The notes beneath the pieces are model-generated. The model was not told where the DNA came from. It ran no database searches and saw only the letters and a program-made list of their open reading frames with translations. A stretch of DNA of 33,540 nucleotides from a virus, in the IMG/VR virus record IMGVR_UViG_3300046511_000161, positions 1-33,540 of that record, one strand, 5' to 3'. The position numbers and the translations under genes are program-made. Below are positions 8,432-30,494 of this stretch, in pieces. Position 1 is the stretch's first letter. Each line of letters begins with the position of its first letter.

Positions 8432-8649
8432 TGCCCAAGGGAGCGGAAAGAGTGACGAAAAGCCTGGATCTGCTGGTCGAGCTCGACGAGCCCGAGTCGT
8501 TTGTGCGTGAGGCGATCAAGGCGATCGAGGCCAACTCCAGCGATCGTTGGAAGCCGGTGTTGACGACGCTGCAAACGCTCGAGACGGCGCTCGCGGCGGC
8601 GAACGAGCCGAAGGCGAAGACCCATGATCGATCCGAACCTCAACCCTGA
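8431..8649 (+). CDS. Small helical protein, third gene of the anti-defence pocket
   Basis: A 72-residue acidic protein with two helices (SLDLLVELDEPESFVREAIK and LTTLQTLETALAAANE). The ATG at 8431 shares its A with the stop of the Acb2-like gene (TAATG). Another in-frame ATG exists at 8419. The stop overlaps the endolysin by 26 nt. No family is recognised. Small helical proteins next to terminase and endolysin genes are often uncharacterised accessory proteins, and its place directly after two sponge genes makes an anti-defence or lysis role possible. Neither can be shown from sequence. Confidence 0.6.
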   Translation: MPKGAERVTKSLDLLVELDEPESFVREAIKAIEANSSDRWKPVLTTLQTLETALAAANEPKAKTHDRSEPQP

Positions 8650-9310
8650 CTTCAATCCCGATCTCCACCGGCCTATTCCGCCGCCGGTCGAGCCGGTGGT
8701 TCCGGAACCGGAAGCGCCTCTTTATGACCGCAAGACATTCTTCGATGCGGTGCGCGCCAATCCGTTCCAGGGCAACCTGACCCAGAGCCAGGTCGACGGG
8801 ATGGAGTACCTGCTCGGGATGTGGGAGAAGCACTTCGCTCCGAACAACCCCAACGACGGCACGATGTGGCTCGCCTACTGCCTGGCGACCGCCTACCATG
8901 AGACGGCGGCGACGATGCAGCCGATCGCCGAGTATGGCGAGGGCGAGGGCCACAGCTACGGCGAGCCGGCTGGCCCTTATGGCAATTGCTACTATGGCCG
9001 CGGCTACGTGCAGCTGACGTGGGAGGAGAACTACGCCAAGGGAGAAGACATTCTGCGCGACAAGTACGCCCACCCGGCGTGCGAGATCCACCAGTACCCC
9101 GACAAGCTGTTGGAGGAGCCCGAGGCGTCGGCGCTGATCCTGTTCGACGGCTCGGTCTATGGCTGGTTCACTGGGGCGAGCCTGCAGCAATATTTCTCGA
9201 AGGCGAAGGGGATCGAAGATCCGGTCAACGCCCGCCGCGTCATCAATGGCACCGACAAGGCTGATTTGATCGCGGGTTACTACTGGAGTTTCAAGGCCGC
9301 GCTGGAGTGA
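8624..9310 (+). CDS. Endolysin, GH19/chitinase-like lysozyme fold
   Basis: A 228-residue protein with a Pro-rich N-terminus (residues 5-32) and a glycosidase-like domain. Characteristic segments are LAYCLATAYHETAATM (Glu93 the likely catalytic acid), IAEYGEG, then YYGRGYVQLTWEENY (123-137) and NARRVINGTDKADLI. This set is typical of phage lysozymes of the chitinase class 19/lysozyme superfamily, which cut peptidoglycan glycan strands at the end of infection. I see no signal peptide or SAR anchor, so a holin should be needed. The candidate membrane proteins at 15355-15713 are 6 kb away, so the lysis genes are not in one cassette. Confidence 0.85.
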   Translation: MIDPNLNPDFNPDLHRPIPPPVEPVVPEPEAPLYDRKTFFDAVRANPFQGNLTQSQVDGMEYLLGMWEKHFAPNNPNDGTMWLAYCLATAYHETAATMQPIAEYGEGEGHSYGEPAGPYGNCYYGRGYVQLTWEENYAKGEDILRDKYAHPACEIHQYPDKLLEEPEASALILFDGSVYGWFTGASLQQYFSKAKGIEDPVNARRVINGTDKADLIAGYYWSFKAALE

Positions 9311-9320
9311 GGGCGCTCTG

Positions 9321-12032
9321 ATGGCGATGGAACGGATCTTCGCTTCCTTCAAGGGCGACACCGAAGACGCCGGCGGCGGCAATTCCGGCAGCTACGATCC
9401 CAGCGATCCCCAGAGTTACAACGCCTACATCCAGGCGATGATCTCGGACGCGCGCGACTATGAGGGCACCATTCTCGCTCACAGCCGCAACGAGTCGCAG
9501 AGCTACTATTACGGCTACCTGCCGAGCATGAACCCGGACGGCAGTCCGTACACCGACACTTTCATCGTTCAGGATCCGACCAAGACCTACGAACAGATCC
9601 TTGGCCACGACGAGGAGACGGCGAACCGCTCGACTTATGTTTCGACCGACGTGCGCGACGCGGTGATGCTGATGCTGCCGGCGCTGATCCGGCTGTTCGG
9701 GGCGAGCGAGAGCCCGGTCTATCTGGTGCCGCGCACTCAGGAGGAGGTCGACCAGGCGCAGCAGGCGACCGATTACGTCAACTATGTTTTCTGGTGCGAC
9801 AACCCGGGTTTTTTGATCCTCTATGGGGCGCTCAAGGACGCGCTCACCGTCAAGACGGGGTTCGTAAAATGGTGGTGCGACGAGAACAAGGAGACGGTCC
9901 GGAAGAAGTTCACCCGCATCACCGCGGAGCAGATCCAGCAGCTGATTTTGGAGAACCCGTCGGCAAGGCTGGTGAAGGTCGGCAGGCCGATATCGAACGG
10001 GATGCCGACGCCGCCCTCGCCGCCTCCCGCGGCTTCGCCGCCGCCTGGCGGGCCGCCCATGCCAGGCTCTGCGCCACCGGGAGCGCCGCCCTCTCCATCG
10101 CCTTCATCGATGGGCGGCTTGTCTGGACCCATGTCGTCGATTGGGCCGCCCCCGCCCCCGCCCCCGACATACGACGAGATCACCATCCAGTTTGAGCTTA
10201 ACAAGCCGCTGATCAAGATCGCCGGCGTGCCGCCGGAAGAGATGCGGATCGACCGTTACGCTCGGACTTTCAAGGACAGCCGGATCATCGGCCATGAGCG
10301 GGTGGTGCCGGTCGATCAGATGATCGCCATGGGTTACCCGCGCGAGCTCTGCCTCGACCACGTCCAGTCGCAGGACATCAACCAGTTCACGATGGAGAGC
10401 CAGCTGCGCAACGCCGGCCGGTTCATGTCGACCCGGGTTGGCGACGGCGTGCTCTATGGCGAGTGGTTCATCAAGGCCGATCAGAACGGCGACGGCGTTC
10501 CGGAGCTCCGTTACATCTGCACCATGGGCGAGACGCACAAGATCGTCCACGACGAGGAGGCGAACCGGGTCAAGTTCTCGCTGTTCTCCTGCGATCCGAT
10601 CAGCCACACGATCGTCGGCGACTCGATCGCCGACTACACTCAAGACATTCAGAAGATCAAAACCAATATGATGCGGGGCATCCTCGACAGCCTCGCCGAG
10701 AGCATCAATCCGAAGACGGTCGTGAACGAGCTCACGGTCAATCTCGACGATGCGCTCAACGACGATCTCGGCGCCGTGATCCGGACCCGCGGCGACCCGA
10801 ACGCGAGCGTGATGTTCACCGCGACGCCGTTCGTCGGCCAGGCCGCGACGCCGATCCTCGACATCCTCAATGACATGCTGGCGCGGCGGACCGGCCTCTC
10901 CGACGCCGCCAAGGGATTGGACCCGAAGGCGCTGCAGAGCTCGACCCAGATCGGCGTCGAGGCGGTGGTGAACGGCGCTCAGGAGCGGGTCGAGCTGGTG
11001 GCGCGGGTTTTGTGCGAGACGGGCTTCAAAGACCTGTTCACCGGGCTCTACAACGAGATCTGCGAGAACCCGAACCCGCCGCGCACGCTGCGCATTCGCG
11101 GCAATTTTGTCCCGTACGACACATCGACGTTCGACGCCTCGATGTCGGTCGAGGTCAATCCGAACTTGGGCAAGGGCTCCGACATGGTTCGGATGATGGC
11201 CCTGTCGGGGATCAAGAACGACCAGCAGGCGCTGATCGCTCAGATGGGGCTCTCGAACCCGATCTGCGGCGTCCAAGAGATGCTGAACACGATGACGGAC
11301 ATGCTCTCGCTCGCCAACGTGAAGAATGTCGGCCGCTACTTCAAGACGCCGAACCCGCAAGAGATGCAGCAGCTGGCGAGTGCGCCGAAGCAGCCTGACG
11401 CCCAGATGATGGCGGCGCAGGCGATGCTCGAGAAGGTGCGGATGGATGGGGCGAAGGCGGTCGGGCAGCAGCATCTCGACACCCAGAAGATGGAGACTGA
11501 GAACGCTTTCAAGCATCAGCAATTGCATGCCAAGACTGCCGTCGATCTGCAGAAGCTCGAGCTGCAGGGTCAACAGATGGGCGTCGATCGCCATGTCGCG
11601 CTCGCGCAGCTGGCGTCGAAGCTGATGTCCGACCAGCAGGACAGCGAGGCGCAGGATCAGCAGAGCCAGCAAGACACGGCCGAGTCGCAGATGAAGCAGG
11701 ACCAGCTGGCGCAGCAGGGCCAGGAGTCCGAGCGCCAGGCGAACCTGCAGGCGGCCTCGGCTTTGGCGGCGCACCGAGAGAACATGGCCAAGATCTCGAG
11801 CGATCACACTCAGGCCATGACCGACATGGCGGCGCGGCACCACCAAGCGATGACGGGCCATGCGGTTTCGACCGGCAAGATCCTGTCGAGCGCGGTCCTC
11901 GACGAGGCCGGCCGCCAGCACGACGCCGAGCAGGCGCGGCTCGATCGCCAGCATCAGGCGACGACGACCGCGGCGACGCTGGCGCAGCAGGAGAAGATCG
12001 CCAAGATGCGGCCTAACGGGGCGGCGAATTGA
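9321..12032 (+). CDS. Portal protein (P22-like, 903 aa)
   Basis: A 903-residue protein that forms the dodecameric ring at the head vertex through which DNA is packaged and ejected. Supporting segments are NRSTYVSTDVRDAVMLMLP, YGALKDALTVKTGFVKWWC, then GVPPEEMRIDRYARTFKDSR, HTIVGDSIADYTQDIQKIKT and LTNMMRGI-like stem residues. The C-terminal third is a long Gln/Ala-rich helical region, as in the barrel of P22-type portals. Unusually, residues 230-284 or so are a Pro/Gly/Ser-rich insert ending in a run of seven or more prolines. It would be a disordered loop within the wing. GAGGG lies 8 nt upstream of the ATG. The stop overlaps the next gene's TTG. Confidence 0.9.
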   Translation: MAMERIFASFKGDTEDAGGGNSGSYDPSDPQSYNAYIQAMISDARDYEGTILAHSRNESQSYYYGYLPSMNPDGSPYTDTFIVQDPTKTYEQILGHDEETANRSTYVSTDVRDAVMLMLPALIRLFGASESPVYLVPRTQEEVDQAQQATDYVNYVFWCDNPGFLILYGALKDALTVKTGFVKWWCDENKETVRKKFTRITAEQIQQLILENPSARLVKVGRPISNGMPTPPSPPPAASPPPGGPPMPGSAPPGAPPSPSPSSMGGLSGPMSSIGPPPPPPPTYDEITIQFELNKPLIKIAGVPPEEMRIDRYARTFKDSRIIGHERVVPVDQMIAMGYPRELCLDHVQSQDINQFTMESQLRNAGRFMSTRVGDGVLYGEWFIKADQNGDGVPELRYICTMGETHKIVHDEEANRVKFSLFSCDPISHTIVGDSIADYTQDIQKIKTNMMRGILDSLAESINPKTVVNELTVNLDDALNDDLGAVIRTRGDPNASVMFTATPFVGQAATPILDILNDMLARRTGLSDAAKGLDPKALQSSTQIGVEAVVNGAQERVELVARVLCETGFKDLFTGLYNEICENPNPPRTLRIRGNFVPYDTSTFDASMSVEVNPNLGKGSDMVRMMALSGIKNDQQALIAQMGLSNPICGVQEMLNTMTDMLSLANVKNVGRYFKTPNPQEMQQLASAPKQPDAQMMAAQAMLEKVRMDGAKAVGQQHLDTQKMETENAFKHQQLHAKTAVDLQKLELQGQQMGVDRHVALAQLASKLMSDQQDSEAQDQQSQQDTAESQMKQDQLAQQGQESERQANLQAASALAAHRENMAKISSDHTQAMTDMAARHHQAMTGHAVSTGKILSSAVLDEAGRQHDAEQARLDRQHQATTTAATLAQQEKIAKMRPNGAAN

Positions 12033-24388: not shown

Positions 24389-26167
24389 ATGTCGACCCAG
24401 TTCCGTCCAATTGAGATCCCGCCGGGCGTCGTCGCTACCGCGACCAAGGCGATGCGCTCGTCGAATTGGGCCGAGGTGAACCTGTGCCGATGGGTCGAAG
24501 GCCAGCTCGCCCCGGTCGGCGGCCAGTCGCAGTACGCCTATCCGCCGTTCGCCTCGCGCTGCCGCGCCGTGCATTCATGGTTTGGCCTGAACGGTATTAG
24601 GTACATCGCCTACCTGTGCGAGAAGAATGTCTATGTCGACGCCGGCGGCGAGCTGACCGAGATCACGCCCGCGGGCGGCCTCGCGCCGACAGTCGTGCTC
24701 GGCGTCGGCGGCTACGGCGATGGCCTTTACGGAACCGGCGGCGAACTGTCTGCAACGACCTCATTCGACACGACGTCGCCCAATATCAACATGGTCGCCA
24801 ATCCCGGCTGGGTAATCCCTGGAACCCACGTCTTCGACATCACGATTGATCCGGTTAACCCGCCTCTGGTCGGCGTGGTGTCGAGCTATGTCGGGACGAC
24901 GCTCTCCCTGGCGGCCAACGCTGCGGTAAATAGCGGCGGCGCGAACGATGTGCTGATGTTCGGCGGCTACAACGAGGCGCGCGAAAGCGGCGGCATCATC
25001 CCGATCGACGTTCTGCCGAACGCCTGGAGCCTGGACAATTTTGGCCAGATCTTGCTTGCGATGACGAGCGCAGACGGGCGGCTGCTCGAGTGGGATCCGA
25101 GCATTGGCGGTCTGATGATCCCAGTGACGAGCTCCGACACCGGCACCGGTTTCGCCCCCAATGGCCGACTGTTCGTCGTCACTCCGGAACGCTTCGTCCA
25201 GATCTTCGGCATGATCAACGACGGCACATCGAACGGCGGCTCGTTCCGGAGGTTTGGGTGGTGCGACCAGGAAAATTATCACAGCTGGAATTTCTCGGAC
25301 GTGACCAGCCAAGCGGGCTTCCTCGATATCGAGCCGGCGAGTCCGATCGTGACCGCGAAGTCGACGAGAAACGGTACGGTATTTTGGACCGCGCATAAGG
25401 CCTATCATTCGGCCTTTCTCGGGATCCCCTACGTCTATAATTATGTCGAGCTCGGCGACAGCTGCACACCGTGGAGTCCGAACAGCGTCGTCACGACCTC
25501 GTCGATGCTGCTGTGGTTCAGCCAACAAGGGCTGTTCTCGTTCGACGGCACCTCGATCCTACCGGTCGCTTGCAAGGTTCGATCTTGGGTCGACGACGAC
25601 ATCGACCTCGTCAATGTGCGCGAGCAGGCGTTCGCTTGCCATGTCGGCAACTTCAACGAGTTCTGGTGGTTTTTCCCGCAGGCGCAGCAGCCGTACAACA
25701 CGCGGTGCATAATCTACAATTATAAAGAGGGATGGTGGTCCCAGGGGACCATGAGTCGCTCGGCGGGCATCGCGGCGTCATTCACCACCCAGACGATCAT
25801 GGCGGATGGGACGATCGCCTTTCAGCATGAGCTCGGTGCGGCTTACGGCAATGCGGTGCTGCCCTGGGCGGAGACGTTCGATCTCAACCTGACCTCGGGA
25901 TCGAAGCTGATGACGGTCAAGCAGATGATCCCCAATGTCGAGGGGAGCATCGAAAACATCCTCTACTCGTTGTTCTACCGCAATAGCCGCAGCCAGGGCG
26001 ATCCGGAGTTGCAGTCGCCGCCGCAGCCGGTGCGCGCGGACGGCTATGTCGACTTCCGCACCACGGGCCGGGACGTCAGGCTCAAGCTCGAGGTCAGCGG
26101 TGCGCCTGTGCTGCCCTTCACCATTGGCGAGCACCTGATCGACGCCGTGCCGCGAGGAGACCGCTGA
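24389..26167 (+). CDS. Tail nozzle protein / DNA-stabilisation protein (P22 gp10-like)
   Basis: A 592-residue protein. It begins MSTQFRPIEIPPGVVATATK, then AMRSSNWAEVNLCRWVEGQL. Later segments include NDVLMFGGYNEARESGGIIP, FGWCDQENYHSWNFSDVTSQ, AGFLDIEPASPIV, and LLWFSQQGLFSFDGTSILPV with YNYKEGWWSQGTMSRSAG. Such repeated W/F-rich beta-propeller-like blades fit the podovirus tail nozzle (P22 gp10 family), which closes the portal channel and carries the fibres. Size and position after adaptor and fibres agree. The start is 3 nt after the collar gene. Confidence 0.75.
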   Translation: MSTQFRPIEIPPGVVATATKAMRSSNWAEVNLCRWVEGQLAPVGGQSQYAYPPFASRCRAVHSWFGLNGIRYIAYLCEKNVYVDAGGELTEITPAGGLAPTVVLGVGGYGDGLYGTGGELSATTSFDTTSPNINMVANPGWVIPGTHVFDITIDPVNPPLVGVVSSYVGTTLSLAANAAVNSGGANDVLMFGGYNEARESGGIIPIDVLPNAWSLDNFGQILLAMTSADGRLLEWDPSIGGLMIPVTSSDTGTGFAPNGRLFVVTPERFVQIFGMINDGTSNGGSFRRFGWCDQENYHSWNFSDVTSQAGFLDIEPASPIVTAKSTRNGTVFWTAHKAYHSAFLGIPYVYNYVELGDSCTPWSPNSVVTTSSMLLWFSQQGLFSFDGTSILPVACKVRSWVDDDIDLVNVREQAFACHVGNFNEFWWFFPQAQQPYNTRCIIYNYKEGWWSQGTMSRSAGIAASFTTQTIMADGTIAFQHELGAAYGNAVLPWAETFDLNLTSGSKLMTVKQMIPNVEGSIENILYSLFYRNSRSQGDPELQSPPQPVRADGYVDFRTTGRDVRLKLEVSGAPVLPFTIGEHLIDAVPRGDR

Positions 26168-26798: not shown

Positions 26799-28385
26799 AT
26801 GGGCGGCGGCAGCACGACTACCCAGGACACCACAAGCAATCAGATCAATCAGATCCCGCAGTGGATGTCGGATGCCGGTCAGCAAAATTACGCCTACGCC
26901 CAGAACGTGGCGCAGCAGCCGCTGCAGCAATACCAGGGGCAGATGGTCGCTGACGTCAGCCCGCAGACGCAGCAGTCGTGGGACGTCGCGGCCAATAGCG
27001 GTAACGTCGGCTCCGATCAGTTCAACGCCGCCACCGCCGGCTATCTCGGCGCGCTCGGCCAGACCCCGGCGAGCGTGACCGCAGGTCAGCTGTCGAACAC
27101 CAATCTTCAGCCGTACATGAACCCCTACACGCAAGACGTGATCAACGCGACGCTGCCCCTGATGCAGCAACAGAACGCGCTCTCCCAGAACCAGCAGGCC
27201 AACGCAGCGAACTCGGCCAATGCGTTCGGCGGCTCGCGCCAAGGCATCCAGCAGGGCGTGGCGCAGGCGCAAGGCGCGCTCAACATCGGCGAAATGGCGG
27301 CGCAGTTAAACCAAGCCAATTTCGCCCAAGCGCAAGCCGGCGCGACCGGCGATCTCAACCGCACGCTCCAGGCGCAGCAGGGCAACCAGACCGCGGACCA
27401 GGCCAAGATCAACTCCGACATCCTGGCGTCACAGGGCCTGACGAACACCGGCCAGCAGATGAACGCCTCGAACGTCGCCAACTTCAACATGCTGCAGTCC
27501 GCCGGCGCGGCGCAGCAGATGCAGGCGCAAAACGACATCAACGCCCAGATGGCGAAGTTCAACCAGGCCTTCAACTATCCGCAGCAGCAGCTCGGCGTGC
27601 TCGAGAGCTCGCTCGGCATGACCCCACACGACACCTCGACCTCGGGCCAGTCGAACACCACAACGACGACCCCGACCGACTGGGCGAGCATCATCGAGGG
27701 CGGGGCCAAGTCCGCGGCCGGCGTCTTTGGCGCGCTGGGGGCGTCGGACCGCAGCCTGAAAACCGACATCACCAAACTCGGCAAGGATCCCAAGACCGGC
27801 CTCGACATGCACGCCTACCGCTACAAGGGCGACCCCAAGTCGTACCCGAAGGTGGTCGGACCGATGGCACAGGACGTCGAGGAGAAGTATCCCGGCAAGA
27901 CCGAGCGCGTCGGCGGCAAGCTCGCGGTCAGTCCGGACATCATGTCGGCGGCGGGGGTGAAAGGCTACGCCGCCGGCACTCCCTTCGTCGGCCAGCCGTC
28001 GCTCGCCGCCTTCACGCCGCCGTCGTCCAAGGGCGTCGCCAAGGGCATCCTGGCGATGTCGGCGTTCCGGCCGCCGACGCGCTTCCCGCGCGGGGCCGGC
28101 GTGCCGAAGATGCAGCATTTCGCTGGCGGCACGCCCTATGTCACTGACGCCCGCAGCGTGAACGCGAGCGACACCGTGCCCGCCATGCTCACCCCGGGCG
28201 AGGCGGTCCTCACGCCTCCGGTAGCCGATCACATCGGCCGCAACAGGATCGCGCGCCTCAACGCCATGATGCCGCACCCCGGCATCAGCGCCACCGGTTC
28301 GCCGCGCGCGGGCGCGCGAGGCATCCACGGCGCGCTCGCCAACACCAAGCTGCGTCCCAAGGTCGCGGGAGGCCTGAGTGGCTGA
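26799..28385 (+). CDS. Internal virion protein with central peptidase S74 domain
   Basis: A 528-residue protein. The N-terminal 290 residues are Gln/Asn/Ala-rich and helical, typical of podovirus internal or ejection proteins. Residues 316-385 are an S74 intramolecular chaperone domain: SDRSLKTDITKLG (Ser316 and Lys321 at the usual spacing of five), then HAYRYKGDPKSYPKVVGPMA and QDVEEKYPGKTERV. S74 domains self-cleave just before the Ser and usually sit at the very C-terminus of spikes. Here about 140 more residues follow, including FAGGTPYVTDARSVNASDTV and PAMLTPGEAVLTPPVADHIG, a segment seen in phage tape-measure or virion proteins. Cleavage would yield two pieces. The ATG has AAGGA upstream and follows a TAG directly. 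Confidence 0.75.
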   Translation: MGGGSTTTQDTTSNQINQIPQWMSDAGQQNYAYAQNVAQQPLQQYQGQMVADVSPQTQQSWDVAANSGNVGSDQFNAATAGYLGALGQTPASVTAGQLSNTNLQPYMNPYTQDVINATLPLMQQQNALSQNQQANAANSANAFGGSRQGIQQGVAQAQGALNIGEMAAQLNQANFAQAQAGATGDLNRTLQAQQGNQTADQAKINSDILASQGLTNTGQQMNASNVANFNMLQSAGAAQQMQAQNDINAQMAKFNQAFNYPQQQLGVLESSLGMTPHDTSTSGQSNTTTTTPTDWASIIEGGAKSAAGVFGALGASDRSLKTDITKLGKDPKTGLDMHAYRYKGDPKSYPKVVGPMAQDVEEKYPGKTERVGGKLAVSPDIMSAAGVKGYAAGTPFVGQPSLAAFTPPSSKGVAKGILAMSAFRPPTRFPRGAGVPKMQHFAGGTPYVTDARSVNASDTVPAMLTPGEAVLTPPVADHIGRNRIARLNAMMPHPGISATGSPRAGARGIHGALANTKLRPKVAGGLSG

Positions 28386-29652
28386 CCACGTCGTCTACAC
28401 CGGGTTTGATCCTGCATTCGGAGATCGGCTGGATCAGCTGATCTCCCGCGCCAAGGCGGAGGGATATTCTCCCAACCTGATCTCAGGCGTGCGCAGCGCC
28501 TATGGTTGGCCGGGGATGAAGGGCCAGTCGCAGGCCGATCTTTACAGCCAGCTCGGCAAGCCTGGCGGCCCGAGAGCGGCGGCGGCCCCGGGCTATTCTC
28601 CGCATCAGTACGGTCTTGCCGGCGACGTGACGGGCATACCGCAATCCGAGCTCGAGCGGCTGGCGCCGGGAGTTGGATTGCAGGCGATCCACGGCGACCC
28701 AAATCACGTCGAATTGGCGAACTGGCAGCAGGCTGCGGCGACGCAACCGTCGAACACGCCCTGGGATCAGACCAATCCGGAGAACGTCCCGTCGAAGTAC
28801 GCCTCGAATATCTCGGCGGGGAACCAGCCTGCTGGCGGAGGTTTCGCCGTTCCGCCAGGCGGGAGGATGTCGCCGGAGCAAATCTATCAATTGGCGATCA
28901 AGCACGGGTTTGCGCCGGGGCAGGAGGCCACCACGGCGACTGCAGTCGCCATGGGTGAAAGCAGTGGCAAGATTGACGCCTTCAATTCCAAGGACTCGCA
29001 TGGCGGCAGTATCGGCCTCATGCAGATCAACGGCGCTAACGCCGGCCTGATCGGCGGAGAAAACTGGAAAACCGCCGGCACAGACCCAGACGCGAGCATG
29101 GCCGCGGCGCACGCCCTGTTTGAGCGGAAAGGCGGCTTTGGCGACTGGGGAGCCTACACCGATGGCTCCTACAAGCAGTATCTCAACCAGGCGACCGCAG
29201 CGGCGTCGGCTCCAGGCGTCACATTGACCTCGGTTCCCCCTGGTCCGATGGACCCGTCCGCCCAGGCGCACGGCTCGACGGTCAACCCAGCGATCCCAGA
29301 TGCGGCGGCGTCGGAATTGAACCCGCTGCAGAAATTCTTCACCCGTCCGCCGTCGACGAAGGACGCTCAGGGCAACGACGTTCAGGGCAAGAGCCAGGCC
29401 GAAAAAATTGCTGATCTTCTCCCCAGCGGCAAGCAGGGCGGCCAGCAGCAGCAGGCCGCAACGTCTCAGCCCGCTCAGTTTGCCCCGGCACAAGATCCGA
29501 CGGCTCAATTGGCGGGCCCCGCGGCGCAATTGTACAACACCGTTCAAGCAACTGCGGCGAAGCCCCTGTCGTGGAACTCTCGCCCCTACGGCTGGAACGC
29601 AGGCTTGCAGCAAATTCCGGGGATGACCCTCAACTCAGCGGGATACGGCTAA
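28378..29652 (+). CDS. Virion peptidoglycan hydrolase: M15 peptidase fused to lytic transglycosylase
   Basis: A 424-residue protein with two cell-wall enzymes. Residues 30-113 resemble an M15 (VanY/L-alanyl-D-glutamate) peptidase: LISGVRSAYGW, then SPHQYGLAGDVTG (His76, Asp83) and GDPNHVELAN (His110), the three zinc ligands. Residues 164-265 resemble a lysozyme-like transglycosylase (SLT): EQIYQLAIKHGFAP, VAMGESSGKIDAFNSKD (Glu194 as catalytic acid) and GGSIGLMQINGANAG. The C-terminal 150 residues are Gln/Ala/Pro-rich. By position it is an ejected internal protein that opens the cell wall, like the transglycosylase of T7 gp16, with an added peptidase. It starts at GTG 28378, overlapping the preceding gene by 8 nt. 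Confidence 0.8.
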   Translation: MADHVVYTGFDPAFGDRLDQLISRAKAEGYSPNLISGVRSAYGWPGMKGQSQADLYSQLGKPGGPRAAAAPGYSPHQYGLAGDVTGIPQSELERLAPGVGLQAIHGDPNHVELANWQQAAATQPSNTPWDQTNPENVPSKYASNISAGNQPAGGGFAVPPGGRMSPEQIYQLAIKHGFAPGQEATTATAVAMGESSGKIDAFNSKDSHGGSIGLMQINGANAGLIGGENWKTAGTDPDASMAAAHALFERKGGFGDWGAYTDGSYKQYLNQATAAASAPGVTLTSVPPGPMDPSAQAHGSTVNPAIPDAAASELNPLQKFFTRPPSTKDAQGNDVQGKSQAEKIADLLPSGKQGGQQQQAATSQPAQFAPAQDPTAQLAGPAAQLYNTVQATAAKPLSWNSRPYGWNAGLQQIPGMTLNSAGYG

Positions 29653-30494
29653 TGTCTGACGGCAGCGACAACCCAATCCTCGACATGGGGCTGCTGCAAA
29701 TGATGCAGCCCAACAAGTATTTGAACCCCGCATACGCGGGGAAGCCACTTGGAATGCCCGGCTTCTACACCGGGTCAGCAGGGGACCAGCCGCCGACGGA
29801 CGCCTCGGGCAAGCCGATCCAGAGTTTCGTCGACTACAACAACAACGCTCAAGCGGACTATCAGAAGGCGTTGACGGCCTATAACGCGCAGCCGGCGGGC
29901 GGGACGCCAGGAACGACGCTGAACTCGACGCCGGGGCAGCCACAGGTGCAGACGTCGGGGTCGTGGCCGGGCCAGGCGCAGGGCGCGGCGGCGCCGGGCA
30001 GCCTCATGGCGACGCCGGCGATGCAGCAGATGCAGGCAGGCATCACCGCGGCGCAGGCGAGCAAGACCCCGCAGCAGCTCTATGCCGACCAGCAAAACAC
30101 CGCCATGCGCAATCAGATGCTGCAGCAACAAGCCAACATGAGCACCGTTCAGGCGGGGAACGGCGGGTTCGGGAACATGCCAGGGGGCGCGTTCAACCCG
30201 GGCAGTTATATGCCGTTGCAGGCGCTTATGCCCCAGGGCGGCGCTGCCGCCGCACCGGCTGGCAAGGGCCCGCCGCCGTCGCCGCCCGATCTGCGTCAGG
30301 CTTATCTCGACGCGCTCGCGAACCCGGGCCATGTCACCACCCCGGGCGCCAACGTGCCGGCGAGCCAACCCCTCGGCGTGCCCTCGGTGCTGAGTTCGTT
30401 CTTGGCGGCCCATCCTAGCGGCGGGGGCAAGGGCGCAGGCGCGTATGACAATAGCGGCTTCTTCAACACGCTGAACAAGCTGGGAGCGGCCTGA
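29652..30494 (+). CDS. Internal virion protein, Gln/Ala/Pro-rich, 280 aa
   Basis: A 280-residue low-complexity protein: MSDGSDNPILDMGLLQMMQP, then AQADYQKALTAYNAQPAGGT, MQQMQAGITAAQASKTPQQL and MLQQQANMSTVQAGNGGFGN. A short C-terminal helix (FFNTLNKLGAA) closes it. Composition matches the other ejection proteins around it. The ATG shares a base with the preceding stop (TAATG) and the stop overlaps the next start (TGATG). No specific function can be read. Confidence 0.65.
   Translation: MSDGSDNPILDMGLLQMMQPNKYLNPAYAGKPLGMPGFYTGSAGDQPPTDASGKPIQSFVDYNNNAQADYQKALTAYNAQPAGGTPGTTLNSTPGQPQVQTSGSWPGQAQGAAAPGSLMATPAMQQMQAGITAAQASKTPQQLYADQQNTAMRNQMLQQQANMSTVQAGNGGFGNMPGGAFNPGSYMPLQALMPQGGAAAAPAGKGPPPSPPDLRQAYLDALANPGHVTTPGANVPASQPLGVPSVLSSFLAAHPSGGGKGAGAYDNSGFFNTLNKLGAA

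Follow-up and report, generated by a model that had tools for sequence, protein, structure and literature searches.

Organization of the lysin gene

The window analyzed here is the whole 33,540-nucleotide (nt) stretch of DNA of the IMG/VR virus record IMGVR_UViG_3300046511_000161, and the gene under study encodes a probable lysin of its ejection cassette, in which a predicted peptide-cutting module of the M15 type is followed by a lysozyme-like, glycan-cutting one. The original prediction placed this open reading frame at 28378–29652, which was confirmed, and the residues it named (H76, D83, H110, E194, and the GLMQI motif) are all present as given. The gene contains the following features:

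28378–29652, plus strand: two-cutter ejection lysin, 424 amino acids (aa), GTG start at 28378, stop at 29652
28393–28740, plus strand: predicted M15-type zinc peptidase module, residues 6–121, class M15a (VanY, family profile, Foldseek)
28492–28494, plus strand: Arg39 codon (SGVRS), invariant in 16 modules
28603–28605, plus strand: His76 codon, predicted zinc ligand 1
28624–28626, plus strand: Asp83 codon, predicted zinc ligand 2
28696–28698, plus strand: Asp107 codon, presumed catalytic acid, three residues before His110
28705–28707, plus strand: His110 codon, predicted zinc ligand 3
28879–29205, plus strand: lysozyme-like SLT_3 module, residues 168–276 (Pfam and alignment)
28957–28959, plus strand: Glu194 codon, presumed catalytic acid of the glycan-cutter
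29014–29028, plus strand: GLMQI motif of the lysozyme-like module
29212–29232, plus strand: PGVTLTS, linker copy of a PGTTLNS-type motif, residues 279–285
29233–29649, plus strand: Pro/Gln-rich tail, conserved among relatives with different cutters
29617–29637, plus strand: PGMTLNS, C-terminal copy of the motif, residues 414–420

The start of the lysin gene overlaps the stop of the upstream gene, which encodes a phrog_4287 DNA ejection protein, by 8 nt, with the GTG codon falling among the final codons of the latter (28370–28390). It is possible that this overlap provides translational coupling and a fixed junction for the exchange of modules. The same arrangement is kept in most of the relatives.

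The lysin combines two predicted cutting modules

Profile searches matched both an M15 and a lysozyme-like domain in this one protein, as had been proposed in the original prediction. The lysozyme-like part gave Pfam matches to SLT_3 at residues 171–257 (E 4e-9; 37.1 bits vs. a curated cut-off of 27) and to SLT (E 2e-6; 28 bits vs. 21.3), and the SLT_3 module has the catalytic-type Glu (E194) followed by a GxxQ motif (GLMQ). The VanY (M15) match at residues 16–91 (E 3e-5) reached 24.2 bits, that is 0.8 below the curated Pfam cut-off of 25. The relatives support the assignment: homologous N-terminal modules exceed the cut-off in nine of them (loci L004, L019, L033, L037, L039, L047, L061, L073, and L090). 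A profile built from 16 such modules found BaLdcB (E 8e-14), Ply500 (1e-10), and VanYB (2e-10) among PDB sequences. R39, H76, D83, and H110 were invariant in all 16 aligned modules, which go down to 24% identity to that of the window, and each of them carries D or E three residues ahead of H110. The AlphaFold model of the M15 module had a predicted local distance difference test score (pLDDT) of 86–95 at residues 81–110, with a weak loop at 40–72; its top Foldseek matches were Ply500 (E 4e-5), VanYB, LdcB, and LysB4 (E 4e-5 to 7e-4), at template modeling (TM) scores of only about 0.5. Judged by sequence and model together, the N-terminal module is a predicted M15 zinc peptidase of the VanY/LdcB/Ply500 type, with H76, D83, and H110 as its putative zinc ligands.

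Glu is typical of VanY at the acidic position of the DxxH motif. The motif of the window module reads DPNH, and Asp occupies this position in every aligned module of classes M15a and M15c, as it does in Ply500 and EndoT5. Asp at a site where VanY typically has Glu suggests that the window module is an L-Ala-D-Glu endopeptidase of the Ply500/EndoT5 (M15C) kind and not a carboxypeptidase. In a variant of this reading, the module has VanY/LdcB activity: as a D,D- or L,D-carboxypeptidase it would trim stem peptides and leave the L-Ala-D-Glu bond intact. The best sequence matches are indeed the carboxypeptidases LdcB and VanYB, and one class, M15b, does have Glu (EFNH/EWNH); yet the class found in the window has Asp, and the top fold match, Ply500, is an L-Ala-D-Glu peptidase. 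We thus regard the carboxypeptidase variant as rather unlikely.

Genome context and predicted role

Pfam matches to an SU10-type portal (E 2e-151), major capsid protein (5e-72), and adaptor (8e-21) identify the window genome, by sequence, as that of a predicted SU10/LUZ24-like podovirus. The isolate relatives listed for the portal are phages of Ochrobactrum, Sinorhizobium, Pseudomonas, Vibrio, Pelagibacter, and Microcystis; because these infect Gram-negatives, the host of the window phage is probably Gram-negative as well. In the region of interest a phrog_3287 structural gene is followed by two small genes, the phrog_4287 ejection gene, the lysin gene, and three more cassette genes. The features outside the lysin gene are:

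8624–9310, plus strand: separate candidate endolysin, phrog_181 (E 3e-20), weak GH19 match, directly upstream of the portal gene
9321–12032, plus strand: SU10-type portal (Pfam)
24389–26167, plus strand: virion structural protein phrog_3287
26799–28385, plus strand: phrog_4287 DNA ejection protein with a C-terminal S74 chaperone domain, the anchor for finding relatives
29652–30494, plus strand: next ejection-cassette gene (+1), with PGTTLNS at about residue 86 of its protein

The position of the phrog_3287 gene would suit a tail nozzle or stabilization protein. A tblastn search with the window lysin gave no match among 50,697 phage records, and the 458-aa gene +2 likewise gave none. The phrog_4287 ejection protein had no match in bacterial and archaeal genome contigs, and Rfam gave none within the window.

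The ejection role assigned to the gene by the original prediction is supported by synteny. The lysin gene lies past the tail genes, within the ejection cassette, where it directly adjoins and overlaps the phrog_4287 gene. In Sinorhizobium phage phiM5, the gene in the equivalent place (L008, 8988–10532) carries the annotation of an internal virion protein/exolysin found in the phage particle proteome. Sulfitobacter phage phiGT1 shows the same gene order, with a lysozyme-like internal virion protein (phiGT1_18). SU10 sheds gp20–24 when it releases its genome, and one of these proteins, gp20, has transglycosylase activity (PMC9509320). Owing to the phiM5 annotation, the phiGT1 gene order, the loss of gp20–24 from SU10, and the separate endolysin candidate, we favor the reading of the gene product as a virion-associated, injected two-cutter enzyme, with a probability of roughly 0.8. 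It would be packaged together with the other ejection proteins and enter the periplasm upon DNA ejection, where the M15 module would cut the stem peptide and the SLT_3 module the glycan strand; both cuts together would open a local hole in the wall for the ejection channel. The Pro/Gln-rich tail would form the constant part, probably serving in packaging or docking.

Several points weigh against this reading. Activity and particle location are inferred for this phage and for all two-cutter relatives, as are bond specificity and the role of the tail, while the domains, their intact active-site residues, the synteny, the exchange of modules, and their fixed order are computed. The isolate relatives at this position (phiM5, vB_OspP_OH, and phiGT1) have a glycan-cutter only. 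The VanY match of the window protein itself stays just under the Pfam threshold, the full-length AlphaFold model (pLDDT 38) was too poor for use, and the Gram-negative host is deduced from the isolate relatives of the portal.

Endolysins often have two domains and are known to shuffle them (PMC10684548), and the protein could accordingly be an endolysin that acts in release at the end of infection and sits among structural genes by chance. However, its gene overlaps the ejection gene, the annotation of the syntenic phiM5 gene places its product in particles, another endolysin candidate lies at 8624–9310, and no cell-wall-binding domain was recognized in the constant tail. An endolysin role is thus very unlikely.

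Combinations of cutters in related loci

Relatives were found with the phrog_4287 ejection gene as an anchor, the adjoining next gene was taken in each locus, and the modules of the resulting 53 related loci were classed by iterated hidden Markov models (HMMs) and Pfam. Two cutters, a peptide- or amide-cutter and then a glycan-cutter, were found in 32 loci, and a glycan-cutter alone in 18. Of the remaining three, one was truncated and two had an ADP-ribosyltransferase-like next gene with the glycan-cutter one gene further. The order of the cutters was identical in all two-cutter lysins (32/32), none of which had two cutters of one kind, and at least 23 distinct combinations were present among them. 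The N-terminal modules comprise M15 (four classes), Amidase_2, a CHAP-like class, and one unnamed class; the glycan modules fall into about a dozen classes, with the Glu...GxxQ signature in 45 of 48. The SleB (Hydrolase_2) module of L033 and L039 was assigned by Pfam because the HMM set missed it. For the CHAP-like module of L042 and L023 we obtained Pfam E-values of 0.006 and 0.07, TIGR02594 at 2e-5, and phrog_1259 at 2e-14, with no match in the PDB.

As 18 of the 53 relatives and the isolate relatives manage without a peptide-cutter, only the glycan-cutter might matter, and the M15 module would then be a degenerate or wall-binding passenger. Against this, all 16 divergent modules keep R39, H76, D83, and H110 and have an acidic residue at position 107, and unrelated Amidase_2 and CHAP-like cutters occupy the same slot, which suggests catalysis. 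We give the passenger explanation little credence and retain that of a two-cutter enzyme. According to the original prediction, two activities could open the wall more efficiently. Since unrelated peptide- or amide-cutters are repeatedly paired with a glycan-cutter in the relatives, selection for a dual cut is plausible.

The unnamed class of N-terminal modules (L025, L035, L041, and L072; the N-terminal 130 residues) fills the M15/amidase slot. An HSG...GC motif seen by eye raised the candidacy of a YkuD L,D-transpeptidase, which was not adopted, as Pfam, NCBIfam, and PDB profiles gave no support for the members tested; the class may represent a new peptide-cutter. In L067 (10760–12340) and L045 (11334–12803), a protein with an ADP-ribosyltransferase (ART-PolyVal) match just under the cut-off is encoded between the ejection gene and the lysin, and the phage might inject this protein into its bacterial host.

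Exchange of modules

The tree of the anchor protein had 53 rows, and 37 of its 49 inner branches were well supported. Across 50 phages, the minimum number of changes on this tree was 10 for the presence of a peptide-cutter, 22 for the class of the N-terminal module, and 28 for that of the glycan module, compared with means of 15, 29, and 33 for shuffled labels; inheritance is therefore detectable but weak. Pairing of N-terminal and glycan classes showed no detectable preference (mutual information, P 0.22–0.24).

Comparisons of pairs of loci, in which tail identity refers to the last 110 residues, revealed closely related lysins with different cutters. Both cutters differ between L027 and L041, with ejection proteins 88% and tails 100% identical, and between L075 and L071 (96% and 94%, respectively). 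In two other pairs the glycan module is shared and the M15 class differs: L030 and L037 (glycan module 96%, ejection protein 94% identical), and L070 and L071 (glycan module 97% identical). The M15 module of the window is 91% identical to that of L004, which has a glycan module from another class. These results suggest that recombination between related phages moves the cutters as exchangeable cassettes.

Every two-cutter relative derives from metagenome contigs, and the apparent exchange could thus be an artefact of chimeric assembly. Yet the same modules recur, differently combined, across many independent samples, and the order is always kept, with open frames and continuous tails. An assembly artefact is therefore hardly credible, and recombination between related phages remains our explanation.

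A shared PGTTLNS-type motif

A motif near PG[T/M/V][T/S][L/I]NS occurred in 41 of the 53 lysins (0.15 expected by shuffling), where it is confined to linkers and C-termini and never found inside the cutters. It was also present in 30 of 48 next genes (0.06 expected). Elsewhere in the genomes it was rare, with two matches in 377 distant genes, and the ejection gene had none. Being related, the loci are not independent of one another; because the lysins themselves supplied the regular expression, the counts for next and distant genes are the fairer test. A role of the motif as a recombination site at the DNA level was set aside, as synonymous codons vary; with codons differing, selection is taken to act on the peptide.

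Taken further, these data allow for a plug-in lysin: recombination between uncultured podoviruses would join any peptide- or amide-cutter to any glycan-cutter on a constant tail, and the PGTTLNS motif, common to the lysin and the ejection-cassette proteins after it, would be a tag for packaging, docking, or processing through which foreign cutters are loaded into the virion. We put this forward tentatively, as a possibility that may well not hold. The shared motif is also a lead that can be tested for the recognition of ejection proteins in packaging.

Comparison with known systems and implications

The original prediction held that ejection proteins usually carry one glycan-cutter, which agrees with reviews (PMC5380687, PMC8954989). 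The podoviral ejection lysins SU10 gp20 and the N-terminal domain of T7 gp16 are likewise injected, encoded among ejection genes, and transglycosylases (PMC9509320, PMC8954989); they are described with a glycan-cutter only, whereas the window lysin has a preceding predicted peptidase module and both of its cutters are exchangeable. Gene 28 of phiM5 and gene 18 of phiGT1 share the gene order of the window and have a lysozyme-like module of the HEQF class, but no peptidase module was recognized in them and their tails are dissimilar.

A glycan-cutter and a peptidase or amidase are also joined in one virion protein in CwlP (SP-beta), HydH5 (phiIPLA88), and gp49 (phi11) (PMC5380687). These belong to the tail or baseplate of long-tailed phages that infect Gram-positives, while the window lysin is a predicted ejection protein of a short-tailed phage; according to the same 2017 review, all two-domain virion lysins then known came from phages of Gram-positives (PMC5380687). 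Ply500/EndoT5 (M15C) and VanY/LdcB (M15B) share with the window module the fold, the H...D...H ligands, and the Arg of SGxR, but are endolysins or cellular peptidases without a lysozyme-like fusion in an ejection protein.

Domain-mosaic endolysins and tail fibers likewise show recent exchange of entire domains on a part that stays constant (PMC10684548); here such exchange affects a lysin of the ejection cassette, a class unmentioned in the main text of that survey. Ejection proteins are known to be mosaic: T7 carries the hydrolase domain on gp16, whereas in K1E and K1-5 it is part of the gp15 homologue (PMC8954989). In a limited search of the open-access literature we found no description of free pairing of two cutters in a podoviral ejection-cassette lysin.

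The large combinatorial two-cutter set occurs in podoviruses of probable Gram-negative hosts, whereas the 2017 review assigned two-domain virion lysins to phages of Gram-positives. The almost free swapping of both cutters suggests that recombination serves these phages to re-tool their entry enzyme, and the combinatorial set suggests that wall entry is under diversifying selection, as are receptor binding and lysis. The two-cutter lysins also represent a natural library of paired, predicted wall-cutting enzymes.
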